From: Salminus brasiliensis
Lineage: Eukaryota > Chordata > Actinopteri > Characiformes > Bryconidae
Assembly: GCF_030463535.1 (NCBI RefSeq)
Contig: NC_132893.1
Span: 34,641,191 to 34,705,190 of the forward strand
Direction: 5' to 3'
Length of the DNA: 64,000 bases
Shown piece after piece: positions 13,388 through 59,600 of the stretch; position 1 is the stretch's first letter, and every line of letters starts with the position of its first letter. A program made the translations under genes and the position numbers. Under the pieces are notes generated by a model. The model worked only from the letters and a program-made list of their open reading frames with translations. It did not search any database and was not told where the DNA came from.

Positions 13388-15374
13388 AATTGTGTGTTGA
13401 AAATTATGTATTTTAAAGCAATAAGTCATGAGAGGCTGTGTGTTACAGTGATTTTACCTCATTTAAGGGAAAATAGGCATGATGTGAAGTAGAAAGTTAA
13501 AGTGTACCACATAACATTATTGCTTATTGCTTTAATAAAACTTCAAAACAAAATGTAATGTGATCAAATACACCAACATTCAATCAATAATTTAATCGGT
13601 TTATTGATAAAAATTGCGGGAAAGTAATTTTAGGCCGTGGTTGCTATAGGTTTACATGTGAAATATGAAAGGTGTCTATAATAAGGGGCAACACAACAAC
13701 GTTAATTACATTTATGCATTAATTACATTAAGTTTATGGGTATGCTCACAGATTACACTTGAAAACTTTAACTATCTAAGAACTGAAGTCTAATGGATGG
13801 CTGAACTCACTGCTTTACCTATGCTACCACTGTCTCACCAACAGGAAGGCGTTCAGGTGAGAAAGCTTTCGTTATTTTGTGGAAACTTAATTTTGGGGAG
13901 TTTAATCTGATCAGATTATGAAATAAAACACTTGTGCATGATGCTGGCTCCCTTTTCCTCACCCGTTCTTTAAGTCTCACTAGCTGCTTGACTCTAGGGA
14001 GGGAAATTCAGGACAAAGGGAAAATTGAAAAGAGAAAAAAAAGCCACTGAAAAGCAGAAGTGGGGGCGACTGGTGTTTCCCTGGATTGCTCTTTTCTTTC
14101 ACTCTTTCACAGACACACACACACACACACCTAAATCAAGAATATGGGGGTTTATCTCTCACATGATTTGTCTTCCTGTCACCCATTCTACTCCTTATCT
14201 CAGTGCTTTGAAGGAATTAAAAACAGGAATAGAAAAATGCTCTCCACCTCTCTCTGGTATTTCTGCACCTGGGTGGCTGATAGTTCTCTCACTGTGGTTA
14301 AAAACCAGCAGGAACCCACTCCGCCCTGTGCTCAGTTATTCTTTAACATGTACGCACTGTTGATCAAATAAACTGTACAGATGAAGGTACCTGAATGGTC
14401 CTTGGCTTGGACATACGGTTCTAGGGGAAGAAGAACTTTTATTGCTTTAAAAGTTGTACATTATGTTTTTTAAAAAGTTCTAGATCTGTCATAATTATAT
14501 GATTTTTGCTTAAAACTAACGAACTAAATAAACAAATAACTAGCAGAGCCGTAGGTGTACACCAGGGATGATCACCTGATAATCTCCGGAATTCAACAAC
14601 CACCTCTTTCTATGGCCCAGGGGGCGCAAGTTCGAATCCTGGCAAGCCATTCTGCTTTGCCATCAGCAGCTGGTGTCGTTGGCTGTGCTCTCTCTGGGTG
14701 GGTAGATCTTAGGTGATGTTGGGACCCGGCGCTTTCCTCAGAGTGTGTCGGCTGCCTGGCAATTTTGCACTGAAGAGAGGCAGTGGCTGCCTTGAGGTGT
14801 ATCAGAGGAGACATGTGTTAAGTCCTTACCCTCCTAGCATCGGAGCATTGCTAGTGCCAGTGGCAATTATGAACAGGTTGGGCAGCAAGAAATGAAAAAG
14901 GGGAAAATTCAACAAAGGAATTACAATCAAAACAACCATCTCTCGTAGTTTGTCCACAGTAATGTCCACACTAAGAGACAGGTGAAAGGCTCTTCAGGAA
15001 AGCAAAAGACGTTCTCGAATGCCATCACACCGAAGAACCCTGTCTTCTTTATTCATAAGAGTGTGGTAAACAGGCCTGGAGTGTATTCTGAAGTGTGTGT
15101 TTTTGCTCAGGAGAAGCTAAAGGACTCGCTGGAGAAGCTGTGTGACTCGTTGCCTGGGGAAATGCCGAAAATGTGCCGGGAGCAGGTGGACATGACCCTT
15201 CCACTGGCCATCACCTTCATCAACAGCATGATGGTAAGAACATCTCAGATACAGCCAGAGCTGAGGCTTAGGTGAAGGGTCAGGGGTGAATAATTTAAGG
15301 AGCTAGATACTACCTAGGTACCTGGGTTTTTTATTTTCGTTCCACTCATGATGTTTGTGTGGGTTTATATATCA

Positions 15375-15412
<38 letters not shown>

Positions 15413-18400
15413 ATATATAAACCCACACAAACTTCATATATATATACTTTTTCCCAATACCGGTCTTTATCCCTAAAAGACAAACAAGCTGTTTTTGCTA
15501 TTATGCCCTTAGAAATGGAATCGTCAGGTCCAGAGAGTAAAAATCCACCCCAGGATTATGTTCTAACTGCCAGGGCAGTTCTGCTGGAGCTTAGCTCTCA
15601 ATGTCCTTAGGAGTGATATATGTGAAAGAGCTCTGATGCTTTGTATTGTGCCTCATTGTGCCAACATGGGCCAAAGCTGAAACACTCCTTATAACTTCAG
15701 TATGAATTCACAGGGCTAAACTGTTACCTGGATATGTTCACCGTCTAATTGGGATTTTCTTGCATTTTGCAGAGAATCAGTAGTCCCATTAGACCAAAAA
15801 GATAAAGTGATAAAAGCTCAAAAGCTCAGACCAAAGGAAACTTAACCTATCAGATATGGACATTAATAGGTTAAACAGTAACCACACCAGTACCCACATG
15901 TTTCTTCCTCTACCTATCTCTCTCTCTCTCTCTTTCTGCAGAACCCTGGTGATGTGTGTGCCTATCTTGGCATTTGTGATGGTCAGCTAAGGGGTCAGAT
16001 ACAGGAGCTGCTGAGGAATCACATGCAGAAGACTGTGGTGCTCCCCACTATTACAGTAAGGATGGACTGGGTTTCTGTATGACTACACCAGAGACAGATT
16101 AGCACCCGGGCCTGCAGGGCATGACCAGTCAATTAGTCAATCAACCTTGTTGAGTTTGCACTCGCAAATAAAACAAATGAGGATGACCCCTTAGAAACTG
16201 ACTAACAAGCCAAGCCAGCCAAGGTAAATAGCAACAGATTTAAAAGAGCGGTTAAGATTTAACCCCTTAACACCCCAAAGGCTTGTTGCACACTAAGGTG
16301 TGTTATTAGTACACTGGTCCATTTTACTTGAACTTGGTATGTTGCTAAATTCGTAGGCTTGTTTTATCTCCACATGTTTACAGTGTTACTTCGCCAAACA
16401 GTGAACTCCTACGCGCTTCGGTGCCTGGATTCCAGAATTGCAGCAATCCATTAGTTTCTCTTCTCTTGTGTTTCAGCTGATCTATGATAAATCAAAATGC
16501 TATCTTACACTGAAAAGGTCACTTTTCAAAAAGGTTATTTGAGGTCCATTTGATATTGTTGCTTTAAGAGACTAAAGATTTATTCGTAGTGGTTTCATAG
16601 TGTAGTGGATAACTCTTAAGATAACTCTTAAGCCCTATTCCCTATTATTTTTTTTATTATTATTTTTTTATTATGAACATCCAACAAATGCTATAAATAC
16701 ATTTTTATTCCCACTCTAGTTGCCCTTTTTCCTATGTTTTATTTTTAGTTTAGTTTAGTCTTTTCTTTTAAGTGCATAAAACTTTGATTTCACTTTGAAG
16801 TAATTGGACAAATTAATGTAATACATTATATAATTACTTTGTATTATAAGTCTCAACCAGTCAGTAACAGTAGTAGCTTTTTACAGCCTAATGATGAACA
16901 GACTGATAAATACGCACATTGGTATTGAAAAGCCAGGATAAATGATATAGTCATATTGATATAGCTAATATTTACCTATATTACCCTTAAGGTACTGTAC
17001 AGGCCCATTTTTTTCCATGTTTTTATGATCTATATGGGGCTGAACCTGGTTGATTTGGTCCCTCTTTTCGTTTCCATCTGCAGCTGAACTCCTCTATTCC
17101 CTGCACTATCTGCACATATATTGTGGATGTAGTGAAATGTATCATACCCAAAACCGAGGTAAGATCATAATGAATACATACACCCACACACACACACACA
17201 CACAAACACACTATGCAAGATACTTGAATCAGATGCAACTTTAACCCAATTTCTGTTGATTAATCTTCTCTTCTTCTTCAGTTTGATCATGTATCTTATA
17301 TAAGGTCAATGTGTGTCTTACTGTAGTGCTGTTAACTTTTTAACCTTTTTTAACGTAAATTAATCATCTTACCAAGTCTGGTCCCCAACTTCCTCCCATA
17401 TGAGCTCAGAGAGTAGATCAAACTTGATTCTGATGGAATATGGATTAATATATATATATATATATCAGTATATCAGTCATGTGTTACACTGACTGATCCA
17501 CTCATAAATGAGCTCAGCTGCTTGCTTGGAAAAAAAAATCCAGCGCATCCAACAATAAACTCAACATGGAGGTTTTTTTTTTTTCAGTGAAAGAAACATA
17601 ATAGAAACACTTTGTAATTAGTCAAAGGAGCCAAACACACCTAATAAACAGACTGATGGGTTTAATAACAATGTGGAAATCTATGAATAGATCATTTCTT
17701 AGGTGTCAGAAATGTTTGATACATTATATCTATAAACATGGACTGAAGTATGGACACAGTCTGCTTTGCTCTCTACTTTAGTCCATACGATGTCGAACCC
17801 ACATAATCAGGTCTATTAGAGATTATTGGACTCCTCCACACAGTTTGAGGAGAGTGTGTGACGCTAATCGGTGGGGTCTATTTATCCCTCAGAATCTCCT
17901 GATCACACTGCTGGGGGACGCGTGCCAGCTACTCCCTCCCCTGGTGCGGAACCAGTGTACCGTGATAGTCACGAGATATGTGAGGATGCTGATCAACATC
18001 CTGCTGGACATCATCTCCCCCGACAACCTCTGCTCTCTCCTGCGTTTGTGTAAAAACATGGAAACCCGTCAAAGAGGTTTGGAGCCGACTGCTGCAGACT
18101 GTTTCTTATATGTTCAGGTTAAGGTGGAATTCCAATTATTGGTTTAGTTGTGAACAGAGCCAATTAGAGAGAAACGCTCTGTTCGAGAGAAACCTACCCA
18201 GTCAGAATTGTTCACAGTGGTGGTGAAAGGAAGCAGACATCTGAAGAGTTTAATGCCTATAAAAGCTTCCTCACTTTACACTATTTTACCTTAGACAAAA
18301 ATAGTGACCGATTTAAGGTGCAGTTATCACAGAGGTATACAAACTACTGCATCCTAAGGTGGTGAATAAGCTGCATTGATTTTGGACTGCTAGAATTGGT

Positions 18401-21599: not shown

Positions 21600-22676
21600 A
21601 ATAATTCCAAATAAACATAAAGTCAGTGGTCATTGGGTTTATTCTTGGGTTTATTCTAATGGTGTATAGAATTAATTACAGGTAGACACTCTCACTGACC
21701 ACTGACTTTATATAACATTAGAATAAACCCAAATAATCAAAGTCAGTGATTAGAGTGAGTGTCTGACTGTAAAACTTTATATGACATCAGAATAAACCCA
21801 AAAAACAAAGTTTTACAGTTAAACACTTTCTCTACTCACTGACTTTTGGGTTTATTTTAATGTTGTATAGAGGTAATTACAGGTAGACACTCTCACTGAC
21901 CACTGACTTTATGTTTATTTGGGTTTATTCTAATGTTATATAGAGGTAATTACAGGTAGACACTCTCACTGACCACTGACCTTATGTTTTTTTGGGTTTA
22001 TGCTAATGTTATATAAAGTTAGTGGTCAGTGGAGAGTGTCTACCTGTAATTAATTAAATACACCATTAGAAAAAAATCCCAAATGAACATTAAGTCAGTG
22101 ATTAGAGAGAGTGTCTGACTGTAAAACCTTATATAGCATTAGAATGAACCCAAATAAACATAACGTCAGTGGTCAGTGAGAGTGTCTACCTGTAATTAAC
22201 TCTATATAACATTAGAATGAACCCAAATAAACATAAAGTCAGTGGTCAGTGAGAGTGTCTACCTGTAATCAACTCTATATAACATTAGAATAAACCCAAA
22301 TAAACATAAAGTCAGTGGTCAGTGAGAGTGTCTACATGTAATTAACTCTATATAACATTATAATAAACCCAAATAAACATAACGTCAGTGGTCAGTGAGA
22401 GTGTCTACCTGTAATTAACTCTATATAACATTAGAATAAACCCAAATAAACATAAAGTCAGTGGTCAGTGAGAGTGTCTACATGTAATTAACTAATATAA
22501 CATTATAATAAACCCAAATAAACATAAAGTCAGTGGTCAGTGAGAGTGTCTACCTGTAATTAACTCTATATAACATTAGAATAAACCCAAATAAACATAA
22601 ATTCAGTGGTCAGTGAGAGTGTCTACCTGTAATTAACTCTATATAACATTAGAATAAACCCAAATAAACATAAAGG
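21600..22676. repeat. 73-bp satellite-like array with an orientation switch
   Basis: From about 22015 to 22676 there are direct copies of a 73-bp unit containing AAGTCAGTGGTCAGTGAGAG, TGTCTACCTGTAATTAACTC and AACATTAGAATAAACCCAAA. From about 21640 to 22015 most copies are the reverse complement (GACACTCTCACTGACCACTG). The array is therefore a large imperfect palindrome. It starts less than 0.5 kb after the hAT-like element and close to the possible sftpb polyadenylation site. Confidence 0.93.
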
Positions 22677-26314: not shown

Positions 26315-27300
26315 CATTCACAGGAGGTACTGAATAATTCATTGTAGATACTGAGTAATGCACAGTAGATACTGAATAATTCATAGTGGATACTGAGTAA
26401 TGCACAGTAGATACTGAATAATTCATAGTGGATACTGAATAATTCATAGTGGATACTGAGTAATGCACAATAGATACTGAATAATTCACAGTGGATACTG
26501 AATAATGCACAATACGTACTGAATAATTCATAGTGGATACTGAGTAATGCACAGAAGATACTGAATAATTCATAGTAGATACTAAATAATTCATAGTGGA
26601 TACTGAGTAATGCACAATAGATACTAAATAATTCATAGTGGATACTGAGTAATGCACAATAGATACTAAATAATTCATAATGTATACTGAGTAATGCACA
26701 ATAGATACTAAATAATTCATAGTGGATACTGAGTAATGCACAGTAGATACTAAATAATTCACAGTGGATACGGAGTAATGGACAGTAGATACTGAATAAT
26801 TCATAGTGGATACTGAGTAATGCACAGTAAATACTAAATTATTCATAGTGGATACTGAGTAATGCACAGTAGATACTAAATAATTCATAGTGGATACTAA
26901 GTAATGCACAGTAGATACTAAATAATTCATAGTGGATACTGAGTAATGCACAGTAGGTACTGAATAATTCATAGTGGATACTGAGTAATGCACAGTAGGT
27001 ACTGAATAATTCAGAATTCCAGAATAAATGAGAGTGGATACTGTATAATTCATAATGAATACTGAGTAGATCAGAATTACCAAACAATTCAGTGTATACT
27101 GAACAATTCATAGTGGGTACAAAATAATACACAGTGGATACTGAATAATTCATAGCATATACTGATTATTTCATAGTAAAAATGGTTACTGAACAATTCA
27201 TTGTAAATACTAAATCATTAATAGTAGATAGTAAATAACTAATTGTTTTGAATAATTCATAGTAAATACTGAACAATTGATTTTAGTTACCAGGCAAACA
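26315..27300. repeat. 42-bp minisatellite built from 21-bp half-units
   Basis: About 20 copies alternate two related 21-mers: GTGGATACTGAGTAATGCAC plus A, and GTAGATACTGAATAATTCAT plus A. Copies decay toward 27.0-27.3 kb. Because 21 and 42 are multiples of three, the - strand stays open for 291 codons (26208-27083), giving a repetitive VHYSVSTMNY pseudo-protein. Confidence 0.96.
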
Positions 27301-30070: not shown

Positions 30071-30076
30071 TTTATT
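30071..30076 (-). promoter_or_regulatory. mat2a distal polyadenylation signal
   Basis: AATAAA on the - strand, the first one after hp6. Cleavage would be expected about 10-30 bases further on (about 30045-30060). Confidence 0.6.
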
Positions 30077-30361
30077 CAAAATTACCAACATGGAACAGCA
30101 GAGGGAGGAAGAGGGATTTGAGGATATTGCAGCTGGTACATATCACAGGAGGACATTTGGTGGGCGTAGCAAGACAGGGGTGGATAGAAGGGCAAGAGGT
30201 AGTGGGGCAGGGAAAGAGAAAAATAATCGAAAAGGCACTTTTACTCTTTCAGTAACCACTCTGTCGCACCACTCTGTGGCATGTAAAGAAGGAAAACATC
30301 GGATGGAAAAAAAATTAAATTAAAAAGACGTCTCCGCACGCCAGGCAGAGCACGTAAACAA

Positions 30362-30388
30362 GGCCGGTTTCTCTGTACAACACCGGCC
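30362..30388 (-). promoter_or_regulatory. METTL16-type hairpin hp6
   Basis: UACAGAGAA (+ strand 30369-30377) lies between perfect GGCCGGT/ACCGGCC arms (7 GC-rich pairs). The last hairpin before the distal polyadenylation signal. Confidence 0.92.
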
Positions 30389-30556
30389 AAACTGCTGCTT
30401 CTGCCTCAGGCGGTGCAGGTCGCCTAAACATAAAAACGTGTGCGCGTGAGTACGTATGGTCAGTCTCACCAGATCTGCCGTCATTCAGGTAAAAATAATA
30501 TAAATAATAAAATAGTCAACAATGGTCACAGCTTCCAGCGCCACCCAGTGGCAGAG

Positions 30557-30587
30557 CCCCAAAGCTTTTCTGTAGGACACTACGGGG
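30557..30587 (-). promoter_or_regulatory. METTL16-type hairpin hp5
   Basis: UACAGAAAA (+ strand 30566-30574) lies in a hairpin closed by CCCC/GGGG plus a G-U pair and further broken pairing. The weakest stem of the set. Confidence 0.8.
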
Positions 30588-30737
30588 ATGCCAGAAGGCA
30601 GGTGCGTGGGACACACCAAAACGACGGTGTTCAGGCAAATGGAAAACAAAAGTACTGGTTTATTATTTTTCTTAAAAAGACTCAGCTTTACACTCGTACA
30701 AAAGAACTTTTAGAGAGAGAGACCCTCCCGAGGAACA

Positions 30738-30761
30738 CTGGCTTTTCTGTATTGACGCCAG
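30738..30761 (-). promoter_or_regulatory. METTL16-type hairpin hp4
   Basis: UACAGAAAA (+ strand 30743-30751), the A variant of the nonamer, lies between CTGGC and GCCAG arms (5 pairs). Confidence 0.85.
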
Positions 30762-30849
30762 GGCTCGAAGAGCGCCGCCAAGCAATACAACGTTTTTCAA
30801 GTATGGAGCGATTCAAGTGACGAAGGCTGCCCCTCTGCAGGGGAGAGGG

Positions 30850-30879
30850 AGCAGGGCTTCTCTGTAGCTACGCCCCGCT
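30850..30879 (-). promoter_or_regulatory. METTL16-type hairpin hp3
   Basis: UACAGAGAA (+ strand 30858-30866) lies in the loop between AGCGGGGC and GCCCTGCT arms (8 pairs, one G-U). Confidence 0.9.
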
Positions 30880-31018
30880 GTCAGCCACATGCAGAGGGGG
30901 AAGTGCAGTGCCTTCGCTGTGGTCTAGTAGAGAGACACACCAAACGGAGGGCGGAAGGGGCAGGTGGGGGGAGTGGTTAGAGTCATGGTTCCTCAGCACC
31001 ATATGGGTTGGTAGCAGC

Positions 31019-31045
31019 TTCTGACTTCTCTGTAACACGCCAGAA
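31019..31045 (-). promoter_or_regulatory. METTL16-type hairpin hp2
   Basis: UACAGAGAA (+ strand 31026-31034) lies in the loop between TTCTGGC and GTCAGAA arms (7 pairs, one G-U). It is itself enclosed by a perfect 13-bp outer helix with arms at 30981-30993 and 31061-31073. Confidence 0.9.
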
Positions 31046-31777
31046 AAATGTATGGCCTGCAGGAACCATGACTATAGACATTTGAAAAATAAAACCCTTA
31101 AAAATATATATATACCCCAATCAAAACGGTTTGAGTTCTAATTCAAATGCAATGGATTAGACATTTGTCTCCTCTCCAAACGAAGGCAGGTTCTTTTCAA
31201 ACATTCGTCCGACCCTTCACAAGAGGTTTCTTGATCCCATTAACAACTTTAATACTCCTCTTAAAATGGTCAACTGGGCATAAATGGCAAGCACTGGTGC
31301 TTTTGTAATTAAAACAGCAGAAAAAAAGGAAAAAAAAAAAAAAACGATTGAGGGACTAGTGCTTCATCCAGCAATGCTTAGCAAACTCTCCAAACTCTTT
31401 GACCTCAATTTGTGCCATCACTAATTCATTTAGCAGGATGCAAGGGGAAGAAGGGCAGAAGGAGAGAGGGAAAGAACGGGGAAGAGGGAGAGCACAAGGA
31501 AATAGACAGAACACTTTCCAGACCGCCATTCAACAGAACTTTCTAGAAATTGCAAAAAGGAGCAAGGTTGAAGGTCAGAGGAGGAAGAAGGGGAGGAAAG
31601 GAAGGAGAGGAGAGAAAAAAAAAAAAAAAAAAGTGTGCGCATTAAAGGAGGAGTGTGGAAGGAAGGGAAGATACGTTTACCTTTGGGACTGGGAGCTGGA
31701 AAGGGAGGGGGACAGGGTTTATAGGGATAACAGGAGATTGGAACATATGGGTTTTGGTACATCATCCCTCTCCTCAA

Positions 31778-31813
31778 GTCAGCAAGGTTTCTCTGTAGTG
31801 TACACCTGCTGAC
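31778..31813 (-). promoter_or_regulatory. METTL16-type hairpin hp1
   Basis: The - strand reads a stem GTCAGCAGGT, loop with UACAGAGAA (+ strand 31789-31797), and closing arm ACCTTGCTGAC: 10 base pairs with one bulged U. It starts 23 bases after the stop codon. In mammals the equivalent hp1 is the site through which METTL16 controls splicing of the last MAT2A intron when SAM is low. Confidence 0.93.
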
Positions 31814-31836
31814 CGAGAGCAGAGGGAGTTACAGAA

Positions 31837-34800
31837 TTAGTATTTAAGCTTTTTGGGCACCTCCCAAGGGAAGGACTCGCGGCCAAAGTGGCCATAGGCG
31901 GCGGTGCGCTGATAGATTGGCTTCTTCAGGTCCAGATCTCTGGAATTGCACAGGAGAACGAGTGAGACCATCGCAAAAAAAGAAAAAAAGGCAAGACGAT
32001 GCAGAGATAAAAAACTAATCTAAATTTCTAATCAAGAGCATTTAGAATACCTTCAGCACCTACCTAATTAACATTAACTGTGCAAGAATAACTATTCTTT
32101 GATTACTTCAGTATATAATGAATGTACAACCTCAACCTGTGTTACACATGTTTCAGATGGACTGTTCACTACACAAAAGGCAACCGCCAACTCACTAATA
32201 CTGAATAACACTTGAGAGGGAAGGGAAAAAAAAAAAAAAAAAAAAAAAAGGAAAAAAAAAAGCCATCTGTGACCCTAAGACCACTTCAAACCGAACTAGG
32301 TGCGTTCTGCCCACCTTCTGTGTTCTGTGTGTAACACCTGCTTTCTCATGACAGCCTGCGGGCCACCCCACAGGAGTGTACTTTACCTGACAATGACCCC
32401 AGGGCGGAGGTCAAAGTTCTTCTTCACAATGTCAAGCAGCTCCTTCTCACTCCTCTGAGAGGTGCCATAGTGGAAGATTGAGATGGACAGTGGATGGGCC
32501 ACTCCGATGGCATAGGACACCTACAGGACAATGTTAACATCGTTTTAATGGATACTGTGGACTTTGTGACACCATACATCGGCAGTCAATTAGGTAAAAT
32601 TAGGTTCTCTCCAATACAACAATTAGAAAGTAAACTAGGTTAAAAAAAATAATAATAAATAAATAAATGAATAAATAAATAAATCTCACCTGGACCAGCA
32701 CACGCTTGCACAGTCCAGCCTTCACCAGAGACTTAGCCACCCAGCGGGCAGCATAAGCAGCAGAACGGTCCACCTTGGTGTAGTCCTTTCCTGAAAAGGC
32801 ACCACCGCCATGGGCACCCCAGCCTCCGTATGTGTCCACAATGATTTTGCGACCAGTCAGACCAGCATCACCCTAACCCAAAACACCACTTTCATTTAAA
32901 AGGTAATAACCAGAAAACCTAAGAGGGAAGTGTTCCTGCTGTTTTAAGTGGACCTTAGATTAAAGATGGTCGACTAGACACCATAAAAGTCCATGTTTAT
33001 TCTTAATTTAAGCTGTTGTAGGTTGAATACAGAAGCTAAAGTGCAACAGCCATAAAAGCAGTGTTTACTGTCTTCTGCCCCGACTTAAATCTTACCTGAG
33101 GGCCTCCAATAACAAAGCGTCCACTGGGCTGCAGGTGGTAGATGGTGTCGTCGTCCAGGTAGACACTGGGCACCACGGCCTTCACCACTTTTTCCTTCAG
33201 TGCATCCCTCATCTCATCCAGACACACAACCTCATCATGCTGCACAGACACCACCACAGTGTGCACACGCACAGGCAGCATGGCCCCACGATCCTGCCTA
33301 TATTGAACGGTCACCTGGACAGCGACAAATGCAGTACAGCGGTAAGCCCAAGTAATCACTGCTCAGCCACACAAGCATATATCAATACAATAGAGTATCA
33401 GCTTATAGGCTGATGTTCAGTGAACACAGCAAATATTTAGAAATATTTGACTAAAGGGAGATCAGCATTGCGTCTCACCTGGGTCTTGGAGTCCGGCCGC
33501 AGCCAGGGCAGAGTTCCATTACGGCGCAGCTCAGCCATTTTTGCATTCAGCTTGTGGGCCAGAACGATGGTGAGGGGCATGCACTCCTCAGTCTCATCAG
33601 TTGCATAGCCAAACATCAGACCCTGCAAATGCCACAAAAGCATAAACGCCATGCACACAAGGTCATGAATACAAGATTTCAACAGATACTGAGCAGCAGT
33701 GCTCACCTGATCTCCAGCACCAATATCCTCCTCGTTACGGTCAAGGTGAACTCCTTGCGCAATGTCAGGCGACTGCTGCTCCAGAGCCACGAGCACATTG
33801 CAGGTCTTGTAATCGAACCCTAAGCAACAACCGGCATGTGAGATACCCAGAAACAATACACATCATCCAAGCAGCGCTGGAACACTTAGCTAACCAACCC
33901 CCTCCCTGCAGGACAATTGAGCAATGCCATGGTAGAACTGCAGCTGTATCTGAGAGGAGTGTTAAATATCTTTACATAAGAACCAGTGCAAGTACCTTTA
34001 TTATTAAGAGTGTACACTAGAAGCCAAGGGACACTCGCCTATCATATTCCCTTTTTTCTAGTTTACAGTCATTTTACAGAGTAGAGAAACACTGCAAGGA
34101 CAGCCACTGAACTTGTACAGACACAGAAACTCCCTGATCTTAAGGCAGGCTGAAAGGACTTCTGCCTTTTTTCCTTCATATGACTGCAAGCGAATGACCC
34201 GAGTACCTTTAGAGGAGTCGTCATAGCCGATATGCTTAATGGTGTCCCTGACGACCTTCTGGTAGTCCACACAAGCACGGGAGGTCACCTCGCCAGCCAG
34301 CAAGATCATTCCAGTCTTGGCAACAGTTTCTATTAGGAGATATTAGGGGGAAAATCAGTATAGACAGAAGACTGAAGGAAAGCAGACCATACCACAGGCT
34401 CCGTGCCCATGGCAGACTTCACTTATTACAGGATCTGTTTAAAGTGCTCCTGCCTTTTATTTATTAGTTATAGAGGCAGGTTACTATTTGAGTCCAGTCG
34501 TGTTCTGTAAACTGTGGCATCAACACTACTGTAAATTCTTTTTAGTACATGCTAAAGCTTATTCTGGGTTTGGGAAACCTGCCCTAAGTGTTTAAACATA
34601 ACACTGACACCAGAACTAATCCCTTGTATGGAATTGGCCAAAAGCTCTTTGTAACACAACTCACCACATGCAACCTTAGCATCGGGGTCCTGCTTGAGGT
34701 GGGCATCCAGCACAGCATCACTGATCTGGTCGCAAATCTTATCTGTAAAAAGGACAGAAGCACATATAGGAATGCAACATTATAAAGCGTGAAAAACTGA

Positions 34801-37800: not shown

Positions 37801-38124
37801 GCGATTATTCTTAACCTCGCCGCATTACTTAGTGATATTTAATAGCAAAATGCTCGCTGTATTCATACCATTCACACTACTGTTTGGCGACACGCGTACT
37901 GCGCATAGGCAGGCTGAGCTAGGCTGGTTAGCTTGCTGCTAACACTAGCGCTAGCACTAGCACTAGCCAGCTACATCCCCGATGACATCAGCCAGGGTTT
38001 AAACACATTTCAGGTCAAATGTAGGCTACCTACCGGGGTGTCCTTCACCGACGGACTCGGACGTGAACAGAAAGCAGTCTTCCTCGATGATGGAGTTGTG
38101 AAAGCCGTTGATTTGCCCGTTCAT
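31837..38124 (-). CDS. mat2a: S-adenosylmethionine synthetase (methionine adenosyltransferase 2 catalytic subunit)
   Basis: Nine exons read on the - strand: 38124-38034, 34742-34665, 34329-34207, 33819-33707, 33622-33479, 33314-33096, 32872-32690, 32520-32387, 31939-31837. All have GT-AG borders and join in frame to 395 aa, the length of the vertebrate enzyme. It makes S-adenosylmethionine from methionine and ATP in the cytosol and nucleus, usually with MAT2B. Visible motifs are GEGHPDK (26-32; H29 and D31), [12 protein letters not shown] (131-142), the ATP/phosphate segment GGGAFSGKD (278-286; K285) followed by K289 and D291, and the C-terminus [10 protein letters not shown]. The start MNGQINGF is the family N-terminus. 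No break or missing catalytic residue is seen. Regulation is written in the 3' UTR by six METTL16-type hairpins. The mat2a paralogue (fish often have two) cannot be specified. Confidence 0.98.
32227..32260. repeat. Poly(A)/(T) tract in mat2a intron 8
   Basis: A run of about 22 A on the + strand, so poly(T) in the transcript, near the middle of the last intron. Possibly a worn retroposon tail; no body is recognisable. Confidence 0.7.
34743..38033 (-). other. mat2a: mat2a intron 1 (3.3 kb)
   Basis: The only large intron of the gene. It holds a short (TCTA)n tract at 35648-35669, an A-run at 36363-36382 and pyrimidine-rich tracts. No embedded gene was seen. Open frames such as 34588-34785 on the + strand are antisense shadows. 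Confidence 0.85.
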
Positions 38125-38670: not shown

Positions 38671-38692
38671 TTTATATATAGGGCAGAGGGTC

Positions 38693-41570
38693 TTGGTTTT
38701 AATAGTGTATGTAATCAGATTTGGTTTGGTTTTAATAATATTTGTAATTAGACTCGTCTTGGTTTAGATAAGATATGCAATTAGACTCGTCTTGGTTTTA
38801 ATAGTATATGTAATCAGATTTGTGTTGGTTTAAATAGTATATGTAATCAGATTCATCTTGGTTTAGATAGTATATGTAATTAGACTTGTCTTCGTTTTAA
38901 TAGTATATGTAATCAGATTCATCTTGGTTCAGATAGTATATGTAATCAGACTCATCTTGGTTTTAATAGTATATGTAATCAGACTCATCTTGGTTTAAAT
39001 AGTATATGTAATCAGACTCATCTTGGTTTAAATAGTATATGTAATCAGATTCATCTTGGTTTTAATAGTATATGTAATCAGATTCATCTTGGTTTAAATA
39101 GTATATGTAATCAGACTCATCTGGGCTTTAATAGTGTATGTAATCAGACTCGTCTTGGCTTTAATAGTATATGTAATCAGATCCGTGTTGGTTTAGATAG
39201 TATATGTAATCAGATTCGTGTTGGTTTAGATAGTATATGTAATTAGACTCGTCTGGGTTTTAATAGTGTTGTAACCAGACTCGTCTTGGTTTTAATAGTA
39301 TATGTAATCAGACTCATCTTGGCTTTAATAGTGTATGTAATCAGATTCATCTTGGTTTAGATAGTATATGTAATCAGATTCATGTTGGTTTAGATAGTAT
39401 ATGTAATCAGATTTGTCTTGGTTTAAATAGTATATGTAATCAGATTCGTGTTGGTTTAGATAGTATATGTAATCAGACTCATCTTGGTTTTAATAGTATA
39501 TGTAATCAGATTCGTGTTGGTTTAGATAGTATATGTGATCAGATTTGTCTTGGTTTTAATAGTATATGTAATCAGACTCTTCTTGGTTTAAATAGTATAT
39601 GTAATCAGATTCGTGTTGGTTTAGATAGTATATGTAATCAGATTTGTCTTGGTTTTAATAGTATATGTAATCAGACTCGTCCTGGCTTTAATAATGTATG
39701 TAATCAGACTCATCTTGGTTTTAATAGTATATGTAATCAGATTCGTGTTGGTTTAGATAGTATATGTAATCAGATTTGTCTTGGTTTAAATACTATATGT
39801 AATCAGATTCGTGTTGGTTTAGATAGTATATGTAATCAGATTTGTCTTGGTTTAAATAGTATATGTAATCAGATTCGTGTTGGTTTAGATAGTATATGTA
39901 ATCAGATTTGTCTTGGTTTAAATAGTATATGTAATCAGATTTGTCTTGGTTTTAATAGTATATGTAATCAGACTTGTCCTGGCTTTAATAGTGTATGTAA
40001 TCAGACTCATCTTGGTTTTAATAGTATACATAATCAGATTCATCTTGGTTTAGATAAGATATGTAATTAGACTCTTGGTTTTAATAGTGTATGTAACCAG
40101 ACTTGTGTTGGTTTTAATAGTATATGTAATCAGATTCGTGTTGGTTTAAATAGTATATGTAATCAGACTCATCTTGGTTTTAATAGTATACATAATCTGA
40201 TTCATCTTGGTTTAGATAAGATATGTAATTAGACTCGTCTTGGTTTTAATAGTGTATGTAATCAGACTCCTTTTGGTTTTAATAGTATACATAATCTGAT
40301 TCATCTTGGTTTAGATAGTATACATAATCAGATTCATCTTGGTTTAGATAAGATATGTAATTAGACTCGTCTTGGTTTTAATAGTATATGTAATCAGACT
40401 CGTCTTGGTTTAAATAGTATATGTAATCAGACTCATCTTGGCTTTAATAGTGTATGTAATGAGACTTGTTCTGGCTTTAATAGTATATGTAATCAGATTT
40501 GTGTTGGTTTAAATAGTATATGTAATCAGACTCATCTTGGTTTTAATAGTATACATAATCTGATTCATCTTGGTTTAGATAGTATACATAATCTGATTCG
40601 TCTTGGTTTAAATAGTATATGTAATCAGATTCATGTTGGTTTTAATAGTATATGTAATCAGACACATCTTGGCTTTAATAGTGTATGTAATCAGACTTGT
40701 GTTGGTTTTAATAGTATATGTAATCAGACTCATCTTGGCTTTAATAGTATACATAATCTGATTCATCTTGGTTTAGATAGTATACATAATCTGATTCGTC
40801 TTGGTTTAAATAGTATATGTAATCAGATTCATGTTGGTTTTAATAGTATATGTAATCAGACACATCTTGGCTTTAATAGTGTATGTAATCAGACTTGTGT
40901 TGGTTTTAATAGTATATGTAATCAGACTCATCTTGGCTTTAATAGTATACATAATCTGATTCATCTTGGTTTAGATAGTATACATAATCTGATTCGTCTT
41001 GGTTTAAATAGTATATGTAATCAGATTCATGTTGGTTTTAATAGTATATGTAATCAGACACATCTTGGCTTTAATAGTGTATGTAATCAGACTTGTGTTG
41101 GTTTTAATAGTATATGTAATCAGACACATCTTGGTTTTAATAGTATATGTAATCAGACTTGTGTTGGTTTAGATAGTATATGTAATCAGACTTGTGTTGG
41201 TTTTAATAGTATATGTAATCAGACTTGTGTTGGTTTAGATAGTATATGTAATCAGACTTGTGTTGGTTTTAATAGTATATGTAATCAGACTCATCTTGGC
41301 TTTAATAGTGTATGTAATCAGATTTGTCTTGGTTTTAATAGTATATGTAATCAGATTCATGTTGGTTTTAATAGTATATGTAATCAGACTCATCTTGGTT
41401 TTAATAGTATATGTAATCAGACTTGTGTTGGTTTAGATAGTATATGTAATCAGACTTGTGTTGGTTTTAATAGTATATGTAATCAGACTCATCTTGGCTT
41501 TAATAGTGTATGTAATCAGATTTGTCTTGGTTTTAATAGTATATGTAATCGGACTCTTCCTGGCTTTGAT
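38693..41570. repeat. 33-bp minisatellite, about 87 copies
   Basis: Near-continuous copies of a 33-bp unit, TTGGTTTTAATAGTATATGT followed by AATCAGACTCATC. Variants include TTTAGATAG, ATACATAATCTG and CATGTTGG. Between about 40540 and 41130 a six-unit block of about 198 bp repeats three times, a higher-order structure. Not CRISPR: there are no unique spacers. It ends about 0.3 kb upstream of the mat2a promoter. Confidence 0.97.
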
Positions 41571-44062
41571 AAGATTTGTACTCCATTGATTTGGTCTTGA
41601 TTGTAATCGTACTTTTGGTCTTCGAAATTGTTCTCGTGTAACTTTGTGACTTTTTGAACTTTTTGAACACATTGTTGACTCGTACTCAAGCACTTTTATC
41701 AGTCTGTGAATTATGTTTCTGGTGATGACGTTTGGGTTTGAGAGTAGAACAGTTTTTTCTATCAGGTTTTTTGTGACGGTGATGATAAACAACAAATTAC
41801 ATATAGCTACTTATATATATATAATATAGGGGATTATTAGTAAACAAACATATTTAGATACATATATAATACATATGGGACATATTATTATGTAGGGACC
41901 GTATATGTATGTAACCCCTAATTGTTGCAGTCATTTCTTTTTTGCACTTTATGTAAATCACACTGTATTTTGCACTTCTGGTTGGATGCTAACTGCATTT
42001 CATTGGCTTTGTATGTGTACTCTGCACATTGACAATAAAGTTGAATCTAATCTAATCTAATCTTATATGAATAAATGAGAATAAATGCAGAACATTTTTG
42101 TCCTCTGTGAACTAAGTCTTGTTGCTGTCATGTAAAAACCATATTGCTCAGTTTTTATTATTTATCAAGGTTTTTCTTTATGAGCTTTTTGTGTGACAGC
42201 ACAACGTTATACAAATCATTACTGTCTGATTGGAGTACATGTCATTGCACAAAATGATAGGAAATGGTAAAAATATAAAGGGGTCTTTGTACAATCCCCA
42301 AACCCTTGCCCACACTTATGGTCATCCTGAACATTGCCTGTATAATATTGATTAACTGACATTGCAATACGCACATTTTTGCTCATGGGCTCCCCCTACA
42401 GTTGTAGTGATTCCCTATTACTCCACTGCAGTAAATGCAAATCCCTATCAGTATACAGTATGTATGGGTATATAATCGCATCCATAATCACACAGCTCCA
42501 GTTTCAGTCTTAGCGCAGTACAGCTTTAGCAGGTGAGGATTTATGTAACTGCTCCTGTACTTTGTTCAGGGGTAACCTGTAAAGATCCTCCAAGGTCGTT
42601 CAGATCACTCTAGACAGTCCATTAGTCACTTTACCCTGCACCACTGAATTAGTGAGCTAAGGGGGCTGGCTGATAAGCTCATTGCACAGCTCTCTGCTGA
42701 TTGCTCTTCATGGCCCAGACGTACAGTTCAAGGACGTGTCTACTTGGATCCTAGGAGTACTGAGCTAACTCACCTAAACAAGAGATTAAATAAAATGCAA
42801 GAGATTTTCAGAAGTTAGAAAGTCATTCGTTTTGTGGATTTGTAAAATCGTGGTTCATTGAAGAGAAACCTTTTACTCTTCATTTCTTTGCAGTGGTGGT
42901 AAATGAAACCAGGTCAGTTTCCATGACTATGACACAAATATAGCCCCTATTTTATTATCTACAAGACTATCTAAACCCACCAGTGAAGCTACACAAGTCT
43001 TCTGAGATGTATATGGAGTAATGATGATGATGAAGATGAGGATGATGGTAAAATAGTGGAGAATCTCAACCAATACAGTTTTCTTTAGGGACTACGTTTG
43101 GCCATATCCCTCCACCATAGGTGCATTAAAAAAGGCCTGAAACTGTCCCGGGCATCAGGCAGTGTACTCATAACCATTTGTCTGTAAGGGAGCTTTTAGG
43201 GAGCTTCAGATGTCTTGGTCCGTTCACCAGCTAAAATCACAATATTAATTATATTAATTATGCACAAATTAAATAGGAAAAAAAGTGTGAAATTCCCCCT
43301 TTGAAGACATAGTTAAAGACACAAAATTAGTCCTGAATTGTGAATTTGCTCCTTTTTTACATCGCTTGAAAACACCAACTGCTCTTTAGATTATGATGAG
43401 AAACTATATAGAAATAGAAATTAATAGAATCTCACATTAATGTACATTATTGTTAAAAATTCAGCAATAAATATGTAGTTGTGACTGTGAAACTACGCAT
43501 AATACGTTTTTTCTTCCTAAAATGTCCGCTAAATTAATATAAAATGTAGAAATTTTATATTTTTTATAAAATGCTCCCAGAATTACAAAATAAAATTCAG
43601 TTACAGAAACTAAAGCTTTAATAATCCATCGTTTTGCACAACTGCATTAATACTCATCATATGACTCAGCAAAGGGAAATGCCCTTTGGACACACAGTCA
43701 GCAAGTTTACGACTTGTTAATATACACTCAGACGTGTGTGTGCTCACACACACATACATACTTTTTTAAGGTTCAAGCACATTTCTTTCAGATAACAGCT
43801 TCACAGGTCCATAGCATGATAAGTCCTCCATGATCTGCTGACTGCAATGGCCCCAGGTTCGATGAGCGGCTGAGCGGGGGGGTGCGTGGAGGTCTTAGGG
43901 TTCAGTGCTGTTTGTATGGATGAAGATGATGATGGTTTTATCTTCTTCTGAGAATAACCCCCTCAGTGAAGCTCTGTGACCAGGCTCTCTGGTGTGTTAA
44001 GTGTGTGTAGTTAGTTTGGGAGGGCACCAAGAGCAGGTCACTGTAGTTCAGCGTGTCTTAAG

Positions 44063-49404: not shown

Positions 49405-51157
<1,753 letters not shown>

Positions 51158-54115: not shown

Positions 54116-55560
54116 TTAAATACAGATAGTGAAAATGAAGTCATGCAGAGAAAGTGGAAACTGCCTGAAGTTCTACAGAAGCCACAACAATTCCTCCTGG
54201 CCCGTTCTGTAAGTTCTTGATGCCTGAGAAGAGAAGCCACAGACACGCCCTCATGGATTTGTTTTTATTTTACACAGTAAATATGTGTTCAAGCCCTTAC
54301 ACGACACAACGTTCACCAGAATGACCACGAAAAGTGCAAACGCAACCCTCACACGAATCACAAGAACCAAACAGCGCTAGAAAACACGGCAGATGACCAC
54401 ATGGGATTAGACTGGGTTTCTACAATCAGCTCCTTCCAGCAACAGCCTATTGCTTGGATACAGTAGATATTATAACAGATCAAGTTCAGCGGCGGGTGAA
54501 TGACTAACCTACTGTAGAGATACAGATAGATAGTACTCCTAAGCTTACACCACTACCATTGTGTTGTATTGATTGTAGACCAGAGGAGCTCATTCCTGGT
54601 TCTGGAGGCCTTCTTAGCAAGTGAAATCCTCTTAAATACAGTCTAAACGTCTAATATTTCTAATTTTGAGATAATTGTAGTTATATTAAAAATTTACTTC
54701 ATTTTAAATTTTAGCTTGTATCAACTAAAAGTCTGTTGTTGGCAGATCGTCTTGCTTAATCCAAGAAACACCAAATAATTTAGCTTCTGATTTTGGCCAA
54801 GAAACCATGCTTTCAGTAGCCAGAACCGGTAAAAACCAGGAATATCAGACAGATTCTAATTTTAAAACTAGATTTAAGATTAAGATTTAAAAAGATTTCA
54901 CTTGATTATCATTTTTGCCACTACGGAAAGTTCCGATCCAACACACCCAGGTCTAACGTGCAGAAGCACCAGGCCCCAGACCTCAAGAGCCAGGCCTAAG
55001 CGCCCCTGTTCTAGACAGATAAACATACACAGGAAGAAGAGGAACTGGACCCCATTCACCACAACAGCACTGCAACTGTGGGCTCAGCAATAAGGCTAGA
55101 GATGCAGTATGGCTTTCCAATTGTTCTACATAAACAACAACATTGTGTGGATGCAGCTGATGAGCATTTCTGAGAGCCAGGTGAAAGGTCAGTCACTTAG
55201 AGAGATGTGTAGATGATCTGGTGGAGTTTCACCCCTCTAGTGCAGAGAATGAACCGTCAGCATGACTTCGGAGACAGTGTTAGGTCAGAGCAGCGAGCGG
55301 ACGAGGTCATGACACTCCAACACACACACTGTTATCTCAGATATACACTGAAAAAAGTGATGATTTAAATTGACCAGATACAAAAGTGTGCATCATTTCC
55401 ACATCAATAACGTATATTAATACTATTATACTAATACTATATAAACTATTTATGATCGTTCTTAAGAATGCGCTTTTTTGCAGCAATTTGTGCCAAACTG
55501 GACAAACTTTGCAAAAAATCTCATTTAATCTAACGAGGCATTGCAGTGTCCAAAGTATAT
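54116..55560. other. Gene-free stretch
   Basis: No supported exon. Parts near 54590 and 54920-55010 ('ttcctggttctggaggcctt', 'gatccaacacacccaggtct') belong to a dispersed fish repeat also seen at 57345-57425. A possible far polyadenylation signal for inpp5j (+ strand TTTATT) lies near 54257. Confidence 0.5.
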
Positions 55561-55564
55561 ATCA

Positions 55565-56635
55565 CAATACCTACATTTAGAGCGTTATTAATTATTATTC
55601 ACCCTAATGAGAGACTGTAGCTCCTCCTCCTCAGTATATATCACAATACCTACATTTAGAGCGTTATTAATTATTATTCACCCTAATAAGAGACTGTAGC
55701 TCCGCCTCCTCAGTGTATATCACAATACCTACATTTAGAGCGTTATTAATATTCACCCTAATGAGAGACTGTAGCTCCGCCCCCTCAGTGTATATCACAA
55801 TACCTACATTTAGAGCGTTATTAATATTCAACCTAATAAGAGACTGTAGCTCCTCCTCCTCAGTGTATATCACAATACCTACATTTAGAGCGTTATTAAT
55901 ATCACCCTAATGAGAGACTGTAGCTCCTCCTCCTCAGTGTATATCACAATACCTACATTTAGAGCGTTATTAATTATTATTCACCCTAATGAGAGACTGT
56001 AGCTCCGCCTCCTCAGTGTATATCACAATACCTACATTTAGAGCGTTATTAATATTCACCCTAATGAGAGACTGTAGCTCCGCCTCCTCAGTGTATATCA
56101 CAATACCTACATTTAGAGCGTTATTAATTATTATTCACCCTAATGAGAAACTGTAGCTCCGCCCCCTCAGTGTATATCACAATACCTACATTTAGAGCGT
56201 TATTAATATTCACCCTAATGAGAGACTGTAGCTCCGCCCCCTCAGTGTATATCACAATACCTACATTTAGAGCGTTATTAATTATTATTCACCCTAATGA
56301 GAGACTGTAGCTCCGCCTCCTCAGTGTATATCACAATACCTACATTTAGAGCGTTATTAATATTCACCCTAATGAGAGACTGTAGCTCCGCCTCCTCAGT
56401 GTATATCACAATACCTACATTTAGAGCGTTATTAATATTCACCCTAATGAGAGACTGTAGCTCCGCCTCCTCAGTGTATATCACAATACCTACATTTAGA
56501 GCGTTATTCATATTCACCCTAATGAGAGACTGTAGCTCCGCCTCCTCAGTGTATATCACAATACCTACATTTAGAGCGTTATTAATATTCACCCTAATGA
56601 GAGACTGTAGCTCCGCCTCCTCAGTGTATATCATA
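55565..56635 (-). repeat. 75-bp tandem array downstream of inpp5j
   Basis: About 14 copies of a 75-bp unit (some 79-80 bp with an extra TTATT). On the + strand: AGCGTTATTAATATTCACCC, TAATGAGAGACTGTAGCTCC, GCCTCCTCAGTGTATATCAC, AATACCTACATTT. Copies are nearly identical. Because 75 is divisible by three, both strands give false repeat ORFs (for example 56278-56634 and 56297-56701). It ends 60 bases beyond the inpp5j stop codon with no AATAAA between, so it is probably transcribed in the 3' UTR. Confidence 0.97.
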
Positions 56636-56695: not shown

Positions 56696-59600
56696 TCATA
56701 GCTTCACGTCTCCAGCTCTGGCTGCAGCTCCAACCCCAGTAATCGGCCCCTGAGGTGGCCTGTGCTCTCCCAGGATGGCTACAACCAGCGCTTCGGGGGC
56801 GCTGACCCCGTTACCAGGGGAGAGAGGGCTGCGGGGGCTCAGGGGGCTGAGTGAGGGTGAGGTGAGAGCGTCTGGGGACACGAGCCTCTCCTTCTTGGCA
56901 TTAGCGGCGGGGCGAGGTGAAGTGCTGCGGGCGGTCCCATCGCGGGGCCGTAGGCTGAGGGACTGCAGTGATGGTAACGGGGTGGAGGAGAGGGCGGGAA
57001 CAGCAGGGCTCCGGCTGCGCTGGCGCCGCGGGTTGCTGTGGTGGTGGTGGTGTTGGTGGTGTTTGCTGGAGCGTGTTCCGGGACTGGGGCTGCGAGAGCT
57101 GGGGGCAAGCAGGACAAGAGTGCTGTCATCCTCCGAGCTGATGTCCGAACTGTCCGAGCCGGAGGGACACCCCGGGGCTGGAGGAGTGCACACAGGAAGC
57201 TGGACCTGCAGGGGAGGGAGGAGCCACATCCATCTATATACTACAGTATATACTGTCATCTATTACCTGTACTTCTCCACTAACTTACTGTAGAGAGGAC
57301 ACCCCTACGGATGTGTGTACAGATCATGGCTGCGTATAGATCAGATTCCTGGTCCTGGAGATCTACCCTGGAAAGTTCAGATCCAACACAACTGGCTCCG
57401 ATATTCAGACGCCCCAGGATCGGGTCTGTTAGCAAAACCTAAATTCTTAAATTTACTGTAAATCCTATTTTATTCTATTTTGGACTTTTTCTGTTGGCCA
57501 GTTCTTAAAGAATTGATCTCTGTATCCTATCTACATCCATCCAGACACTACAGTATATGCTGTTATCTATAACAAGTACTGTCCTTTAGTCTACGACTAA
57601 TACTGTACCACATAATCAAGTGTAGTGTTGAAAGAACTTTGGTGGAGCTGCAAGAGAAGCTCTTTCCAGAACCCAAGTCATACAGTATTAGTGTACAATC
57701 CTGTAGTATTACTCCACCGCCTCAGCCCACATGCTTCTCTACCTTCAGATGCTGCTTCTGGAGCTCTCAGCTTGTCCAGAAATGCATGTGTACAGCTAGC
57801 TGCCCGTGAGGGGGCGCTCAAAGCGTGATTTGTATTTACTATTGTGGAGTAAAAGTGAATTACACTCCCCAGCTGTAGGGGGAGCCCAGGAGTAAAAAAT
57901 ACCAATTCTCACATAATGCTGCTTTAACGTTACTCTACACTCTAATCCACGTTCTGTAGGTTTAATTAGACATTTCTCGAGTGTCCAACCTCAAAATAGT
58001 CGCTAAGATAAAATGTGACTGTTGGAGTGTGTAGAGGGCATCTGACTCCTAGACTGGCACTCCTAGACTGGCATTCACACGTCTTTACTGAAATTCGTTT
58101 AGAGGTTTGACCTGGAATGGCTCTGTAATTCCCACAATGCTGTTCATATTGTTGCTGTAGTAGCCCAGGATGTACTCTCCTGCATCTCTAGGTAAATCCT
58201 CTTCTGGAAATGTCACCTAGAAGCAGAAATAAGATTGATTAAAGGATACAGAAAATCAGAGGGATTATGTTAGGAGGTAGACAATGGAGTCTGGTGGTTC
58301 CAACATCATAAGGTCTTTAGAGTAAACTCTAAAAGCACAGTAGGCTCTTTGTTTGGGTGCATTTTGGGCTTGTACGCTATGTCCCACCTGAGTTGAATGG
58401 TCCGATTTGGCCCACACATAGGCTGCATAGTCTTTGTGGTGTTTGAATCCCACCTGAAAACAAATCACAGAGATACCGCACTTACATTTATATTTCTATA
58501 TACTTAGCAGACCTGCTAGACACTTTTGAGGACACTGAGACACTTGGACACCCACACTTGGACACTTTATTGTGCTACTTCATCTCATATTGTGATCAGA
58601 TTGCTGCTACTTTTTTATTTCTCTGCTTTCCCACCTTTCCTACACCTCTTATATTCTATATTTTTATTATTAATATGATTTCATTTATTTAATAATTGCT
58701 CTTTGGGTGTAACTGTGACCTTGAGATCTCACCCCATGTACCACATGCAATGCAAATGACAATAAAGTCTTTTTGAATCCTTGAATTCTACACCATGCTA
58801 ACTTAAATCTCTTGGCCTGCAGGCAGTTAGACAGTCGCTCCACTCTAGAGCTCTGAAGCCGTGTACATTTCTGAGTCTGAGAAAGAAGGGGAGGTAAATT
58901 TACTCAGAACTCTACGTAATGTAGTTTCACAGCTCTAGACCGGCCCTACGGTCTAACTGCTGCTCTTCATCAAGTGTGAGGAGGTCATCAGTTCAAATCC
59001 CAGCAAGGCCTCAGCGCTCCAGAATTGCTCTAATTGCTCTTCTGCAATTTACCTTCTGGGATCAATAAAGTATTTCTGACTCTGATTCTGATCATTTGAG
59101 GGGGCGGAGCCACAGACTAAATATCTTAATATCTAGTATTTAATCAGTTTCAGTTGCAGCTCTTTTACTGATGATTTTGATGATCAGCTCAGTATGGATT
59201 GTTGATCAAACTGATATGCAACAACATAAACAACAGTCCTGTGGTCAGAAACTGACCAGTGATAGACAGGGTAGTGAGTGGACAACAACAGCACTGCAAA
59301 AAATTTAATCTTAGCAAGTGATATTCTCTTTAATCTAGTCTGAATATCTGATACTTCTCACTTTTACATTGTTGTAAGACAATTATAAGAATATTTAACT
59401 TATAAGAATTAACTTATTAGTTTTTATTCCTAAGTAATTAAATCTACTGGAAGTGTCTTACTCCACTGACCGATAATTGAATATATCTTTTAATAGATAA
59501 AATAAAAACACTTAAACAAGCAAAAAAATAGTTACAAATAAGTTAATTAATCTTACAATATTTCTCCCATAATCTCAGAATGAGAACTATTAGATATGCT

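Follow-up and report, generated by a model that had tools for sequence, protein, structure and literature searches.

Six METTL16-type hairpins in the mat2a 3' untranslated region of Salminus brasiliensis, a probable counterpart of the vertebrate MAT2A hp1–hp6 array

The 3' untranslated region (UTR) of mat2a, which encodes the enzyme producing S-adenosylmethionine (SAM), in the fish Salminus brasiliensis carries six hairpins built around the METTL16 nonamer, and this array very probably represents the orthologous vertebrate MAT2A 3'-UTR hairpins hp1–hp6 (Rfam MAT2A_A to MAT2A_F), a published SAM-feedback element. Observed in the window (the whole stretch of 64,000 nucleotides analyzed, contig NC_132893.1) are the host gene, six sites with their geometry and order, the colinear match to Rfam, and a CFIm-type UGUA. 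The hairpin system and its spread among vertebrates have already been published (PMC8139829, PMC9778287, PMC7927073). A description of a fish hp1–hp6 was not found in the literature searched, a scope outside which Parker 2011, Pendleton 2017, Shima 2017, and Doxtader 2018 fall.

The host gene and its six nonamers

An intact mat2a gene is located on the minus strand, with nine exons, GT-AG introns, and 395 uninterrupted codons. The protein encoded from exon 2 onward (364 residues, all aligned) scored 792 bits against isoform type-2 (MAT2A) chains of solved structures and a lower 733 bits against isoform type-1 chains, which supports the earlier identification of the gene as mat2a. The coding part of exon 9 comprises 103 nt, stop included, and hp1 lies in the same exon, after the last intron. 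The 3' UTR extends for about 1.78 kb (~1,776 nt), up to a distal AATAAA at 30076. In a pattern search of the genome (1,066,335,885 bases, 103 contigs), the hp1 pattern occurred once, at this locus; zebrafish has two genes, mat2aa and mat2ab (PMC10770094). The parts of the gene are as follows.

38034..38124, minus strand: mat2a exon 1, with the ATG at 38124
31837..34742, minus strand: span of mat2a exons 2–9, with GT-AG introns and an intact CDS; stop codon at 31839-31837
34742-34665, 34329-34207, 33819-33707, and 33622-33479, minus strand: mat2a exons 2–5
33314-33096, 32872-32690, 32520-32387, and 31939-31837, minus strand: mat2a exons 6–9
31940..32386, minus strand: last intron, 447 nt, counterpart of the intron that is detained in mammals (PMC8139829)

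The surroundings of the gene contain tandem repeats and open frames. A minisatellite at 38690-41571, about 0.6 kb upstream of the mat2a start codon, consists of about 87 copies of 33-bp units and has long open frames on the plus strand (ICNQTHLGFNS repeats), while a 21/42-bp tandem array at 26316-27278, downstream of mat2a, overlaps a 299-aa open frame on the minus strand. Additionally, 73-bp units in opposite orientations (21845-22015 and 22013-22675) form an inverted array at 21845-22675, which sub-threshold matches to microRNA models adjoin. A 75-bp tandem array at 55554-56633 (about 14 copies, 95% matches) is open in frames on both strands. Two further features are on the minus strand: at 50516-50878, part of a transposase of the Tc1/Sleeping Beauty type (Pfam HTH_SB, E 3.6e-16), and at 56696-57259, an open frame of 187 aa, rich in Ser and Pro, that matches nothing in Pfam at E 0.001 and may be an exon from a neighboring gene.

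Six exact copies of TACAGARAA are present on the minus strand, all within the mat2a 3' UTR. As the first-pass annotation had counted, four are of the GAGAA type and two, those of hp4 and hp5, of the GAAAA type; the nonamer of these two is UACAGAAAA. The names hp1–hp6 reportedly come from Pendleton et al. 2017. The hairpins are listed below with their nonamers, the offsets of these after the stop, linker lengths, contiguous stems, and scores against the Rfam models.

hp1, 31765..31827, minus strand: nonamer 31797-31789 (+40), linker 5 nt, stem 4 bp, outer helix 31827-31817 / 31775-31765; MAT2A_A 27.5 bits (cut-off 40)
hp2, 30978..31076, minus strand: nonamer 31034-31026 (+803), linker 3 nt, stem 8 bp, long outer helix 31076-31061 / 30993-30978; core 31043-31021 with weak matches to MAT2A_F (19.4 bits) and MAT2A_B (17.5 bits)
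hp3, 30830..30899, minus strand: nonamer 30866-30858 (+971), linker 4 nt, stem 8 bp, outer helix 30899-30890 / 30839-30830; MAT2A_C 29.6 bits (cut-off 47)
hp4, 30722..30773, minus strand: nonamer 30751-30743 (+1086), linker 4 nt, stem 5 bp; MAT2A_C 26.8 bits, MAT2A_D 21.8 bits
hp5, 30540..30599, minus strand: nonamer 30574-30566 (+1263), linker 3 nt, stem 3 bp; MAT2A_B 24.9 bits, MAT2A_E 19.8 bits
hp6, 30341..30408, minus strand: nonamer 30377-30369 (+1460), linker 3 nt, stem 7 bp; MAT2A_F 40.9 bits (cut-off 51)

The position of hp1 directly 3' of the stop, as described earlier, is thus confirmed by the +40 offset of its nonamer. Shuffled sequence does not reproduce such a concentration of nonamers. 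In 5,000 dinucleotide shuffles of the 1,776-nt 3' UTR, the nonamer was missing from 4,939 and occurred once in 61. Across the window, nine matches were found, against a mean of 2.53 and a maximum of 7 in 100 whole-window shuffles; the three outside the UTR are on the plus strand (11875, 25260, 58247) and all of the GAAAA type.

The geometry of the sites provides a second control. In crystal structures of METTL16 with RNA, a GU and a linker of variable length precede UACAGAGAA in the substrate, which also has a stem (review PMC7927073). Judged by sequence, the GU-linker-nonamer arrangement with a closing stem of at least 3 bp is found at six of six mat2a UTR sites. The contiguous stems of 3–8 bp confirm that complementary arms flank every nonamer. 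On the plus strand, the nonamers at 25260 and 58247 are without GT at linker 2–7, and that at 11875 has GT at linker 4 with a stem of 2 bp only. When flanks were shuffled (20,000 trials), GT at linker 3–5 appeared in 25% and GT plus at least 3 bp in 2.2%, so that the geometry would arise by chance at six of six sites with a probability of about 1e-10 if the sites are independent. With UTR shuffles that never hold more than one nonamer and a geometry present at 6/6 sites versus 0/3 of the other nonamers, the earlier view that chance does not explain the six is well founded.

Degenerate hairpins were sought on both strands of the window, with one or two nonamer mismatches, GT at linker 2–7, and a stem of at least 5 bp. 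None was found in the 3' UTR, and no one-mismatch candidate on either strand of the window. As a seventh hairpin, three two-mismatch candidates on the minus strand (37861 in mat2a intron 1, 11057, and 2372) were considered and treated as chance.

Relation to the Rfam MAT2A families

Rfam RF02260–RF02265, six families that cover the human array, reportedly correspond to the MAT2A 3' UTR stem loops A–F of Parker et al. 2011. The curated cut-offs are reached by none of the six hairpins, and nothing in the window passes them. A cut-off is an annotation rule of Rfam and not a biological feature; therefore, the family assignment rests on other tests. The window scan with E up to 10 returned 42 rows, 7 of which are MAT2A families, all in the mat2a UTR and covering five hairpins; hp2 is absent from this list and was matched only in narrower scans. 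Whole-window E-values are 3.9e-5 for hp6, about 0.05 for hp3 and hp1, 0.29 for hp4, and 1.2 for hp5. At this search space, clear significance is reached by hp6 alone, and the narrow scans gave stronger E-values. In the same window, unrelated microRNA models gave sub-cut-off matches with E from 1e-6 to 1e-3 (21739-21844, 15353-15432, 50095-50165). Taken by themselves, the sequence scores thus suffice for hp6 and lend support to hp1 and hp3, and the others lean on gene context, order, and geometry.

Assignment by the best Rfam match alone was rejected, as it puts hp2, hp4, and hp5 in F, C, and B, where a colinear assignment would give B, D, and E. Because the best-score assignment is not colinear, order, linker length, and a permutation comparison were used instead. 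The six linker lengths agree in order with those of Rfam A–F, as they would in 12 of 720 permutations, and the linkers of hp3 (AGCU) and hp5 (CCU) are identical to the Rfam C and E linkers. Under an ad hoc score (+2 for a matching linker length, +1 for identities), the colinear assignment ties for best among the 720, the tied order being the one that swaps hp3 and hp4. Compensatory change was also seen in the stems. When 30 stem positions, five pairs from every hairpin, were set against the Rfam consensus, 14 proved identical, 5 differed on one side, and 8 differed on both sides but still paired. At the remaining three, pairing is broken in the window alone (1), in Rfam alone (1), or in both (1).

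This comparison takes Rfam A–F to run 5' to 3' as hp1–hp6, an order inferred from two kinds of evidence: the published placements, in which A and B are separated by a single hairpin and C and D by two (PMC9403969), and the GAAAA nonamer, which is carried by human hp5 (PMC7927073) and also present in Rfam E. The claim that the complete hp1–hp6 set is kept in a fish is supported by the colinear linkers, the compensatory stems, and the restriction of Rfam MAT2A matches to the UTR, with its function proposed by analogy with mammals.

The array lies in the same gene and at the same UTR position as the Rfam and human MAT2A arrays, has as many hairpins, with the same nonamer and the linker lengths in the same order, carries GAAAA in hp5, and places hp1 beside the stop; it differs in that its scores fall under the cut-offs. 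Individual hairpins differ as well. hp4 has GAAAA, whereas the Rfam D consensus has GAGAA, and hp2 matches Rfam in its core only. hp3 has a different outer helix, of its own, since six of the nine outer pairs of Rfam C are broken. The AATAAA between hp4 and hp5 may be a further difference. Beyond MAT2A, the same enzyme, METTL16, methylates the ACAGA box of U6 snRNA, UACAGAGAA (PMC9778287); this box differs in being part of a spliceosomal RNA and not of a 3'-UTR hairpin array. The nematode sams-3/4/5 SAM synthetase transcripts are likewise under a METTL16 orthologue, METT-10 (PMC9778287). Their METT-10 site differs, as that text describes it: it is single, has another nonamer end, lies at an exon–intron border, and is without 3'-UTR hairpins.

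Predicted folding of the hairpins

The first-pass annotation had placed every nonamer in a loop, which holds fully for hp1, hp5, and hp6 but in part only for hp3 and hp4 and least for hp2. Minimum-energy folds of short fragments leave all nine nonamer bases unpaired in those first three of six. The best folds of hp3 and hp4 contain a helix of two pairs that involves nonamer bases, with 6 and 7 of 9 remaining free, and the fold with an open nonamer is worse by 0.2 and 0.1 kcal/mol, respectively. For hp2, an upstream U-rich arm occupies 7 of the 9 nonamer bases in the best fold (-8.5 kcal/mol), and the METTL16-compatible fold (-7.8) is 0.7 kcal/mol worse. Folding that leaves nonamers outside loops had been named beforehand as evidence against the array, and hp2 is a partial instance of it. 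In an 821-nt piece spanning hp2–hp6, a wholly open nonamer is seen in hp6 only. The energy models used ignore the non-standard pairs in the transition region of the METTL16 complex.

Stem strength was evaluated as the probability of the compatible stem with 25, 70, and 150 nt of context on each side. These probabilities are about 0.65 in all contexts for hp1 (0.64–0.66 at ±70 nt); 0.06, 0.21, and 0.21 for hp2; 0.93, 1.0, and 1.0 for hp3; 1.0, 0.70, and 0.29 for hp4; about 0.75, 0.30, and 0.09 for hp5; and 0.97–1.0 for hp6. By these values, the lowest probability belongs to hp2 with 25 and 70 nt of context and to hp5 with 150 nt, and the compatible folds of hp4 and hp5 become weaker as the context grows. 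A grading proposed earlier, with hp1 and hp6 strong and hp5 weak, therefore needs revision: hp6 is indeed strong and hp5 weak (about 0.3 at ±70 nt), but hp2 is lowest (0.21), hp3 is among the strongest (1.0), and hp1 reaches 0.64–0.66.

Compared with shuffled sequence, only hp1 stands clear by itself, since the short-fragment z-scores of hp1–hp6 are -2.65, -0.59, -0.44, -0.72, -1.39, and -1.64. With flanking helices, the values become -4.66 for hp2, -4.50 for hp1, -2.89 for hp3, -2.88 for hp6, -1.25 for hp5, and -0.52 for hp4. The outer helix of hp2 has 16-nt arms that are 94% complementary, and a search of the UTR for inverted repeats (arms of at least 10 nt, at most 130 apart) yielded five, three of which enclose hp1, hp2, and hp3. 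Overlapping 100-nt UTR windows with a hairpin core (21) have a mean z of -1.15 versus -0.26 for those without (64). Values of -2 or lower occur in 5 of the 21 and in 4 of the 64 (31596, 30316, 30236, 30216), so stable folds are not limited to the hairpins.

Regulatory signals, mechanism, and alternative readings

In human cells, CFIm25 works via a UGUU just upstream of hp1 and a UGUA 9–12 nt upstream of the last 3' splice site; the first of these sites is UGUU in most vertebrates and UGUA in Danio rerio (PMC8139829). The corresponding signals in S. brasiliensis, together with the polyadenylation signals, are the following.

31830..31833, minus strand: UGUA between the stop and hp1, at the position of the CFIm25 site, canonical and Danio-like
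31949..31952, minus strand: UGUG in the last intron, in the place of the human UGUA, 10–13 nt upstream of the 3' splice site
30659..30664, minus strand: AATAAA between hp4 and hp5, a consensus match only
30071..30076, minus strand: distal AATAAA after hp6, the likely end of the long 3' UTR, a consensus match only

A UGUA is absent 9–12 nt upstream of the last 3' splice site, the nearest in the last intron being 189 nt upstream. The UGUG and the UGUA before hp1 are 119 nt apart (first base to first base), and the human counterpart spacing is 114 (PMC8139829).

Early polyadenylation, which would end the mRNA before 31013, had been proposed as a way to reject the hairpin array. Among five hexamers searched (AATAAA, ATTAAA, AGTAAA, TATAAA, AATATA), only the variants ATTAAA (31253) and TATAAA (31723), which may or may not be used, lie between hp1 and hp2; no AATAAA is found there, the two copies following hp4 and hp6, and this ground for rejection was dismissed. 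The AATAAA at 30664 is preceded by UGUA at 30700-30697 and 30692-30689 (36 and 28 nt upstream, start to start) and followed by sequence that appears U/GU-rich by eye. A minor human MAT2A isoform is reported to arise from a weak proximal poly(A) site (PMC8139829); shortened forms would therefore not be new in kind.

In mammals, methylation of hp2–hp6 governs mRNA stability and hp1 governs splicing (PMC8139829, PMC7927073). By analogy, the UACAGARAA of each hairpin would be methylated by METTL16 at its fourth base, an A. When SAM is plentiful, methylated hp2–hp6 would lower mRNA stability, and METTL16 would quit hp1 fast, leaving the last intron in. When SAM is scarce, METTL16 would linger on hp1 and, via the nearby-bound CFIm complex, promote splicing of the last intron and thereby raise MAT2A. 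METTL16 binding, methylation, splicing control, and decay in Salminus brasiliensis are inferred on this basis. Like hp5, hp4 has the GAAAA form; in human hp1 and hp6, a change from GAGAA to GAAAA is reported to raise methylation in vitro (PMC7927073). A result from another fish counts against a simple transfer of the mammalian mechanism, because zebrafish mettl16-/- embryos at 3 dpf were reported to have unchanged mat2aa splicing and unchanged mat2aa/mat2ab expression (PMC11099167).

It is conceivable, though unlikely, that the hairpins are conserved METTL16 substrates of which only the decay arm (hp2–hp6) works, the hp1–CFIm splicing switch being weakened or lost. The intronic UGUG points in this direction, given that two mutations of the intronic UGUA cut splicing in human-cell reporters, as does the normal mat2a splicing of the zebrafish mutants (PMC8139829, PMC11099167). 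However, UGUG is not among the mutants described in the accessible part of PMC8139829, hp1 itself is intact and its outer helix strong, and the UGUA before it is canonical. The zebrafish report also fails to separate the two arms, since mat2a expression was unchanged as well (PMC11099167). A related reading holds that the array is partly rewired, with a changed intronic CFIm site, GAAAA in hp4, and a poly(A) signal allowing mRNAs with four or six hairpins, so that feedback would run via decay and hairpin dosage and not via a splicing switch; this is considered quite improbable.

Very little probability is given to a lineage-specific local duplication that produced six hairpins in place of six old orthologues. 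The hairpins do have their core in common, and several fit additional Rfam models, partly better than the colinear one, but in each the linker length is that of its colinear family, hp3 and hp5 have the exact linker, and the outer helices differ. That the nonamers are chance matches without structure is practically negligible: the window holds three more, all GAAAA and one with GT at linker 4, and for five of the six short hairpins stability does not clearly exceed that of shuffles, but the UTR shuffles, the geometry (6/6 vs 0/3), and the confinement of Rfam MAT2A matches to the mat2a UTR speak against it.

Orthology with the vertebrate hp1–hp6 array is the preferred reading. The Rfam cut-offs miss all six hairpin copies at this locus. 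The GAAAA nonamer of hp4, the intronic UGUG, and the internal poly(A) signal are candidate reasons for the reportedly normal splicing of mat2a in zebrafish mettl16 mutants.
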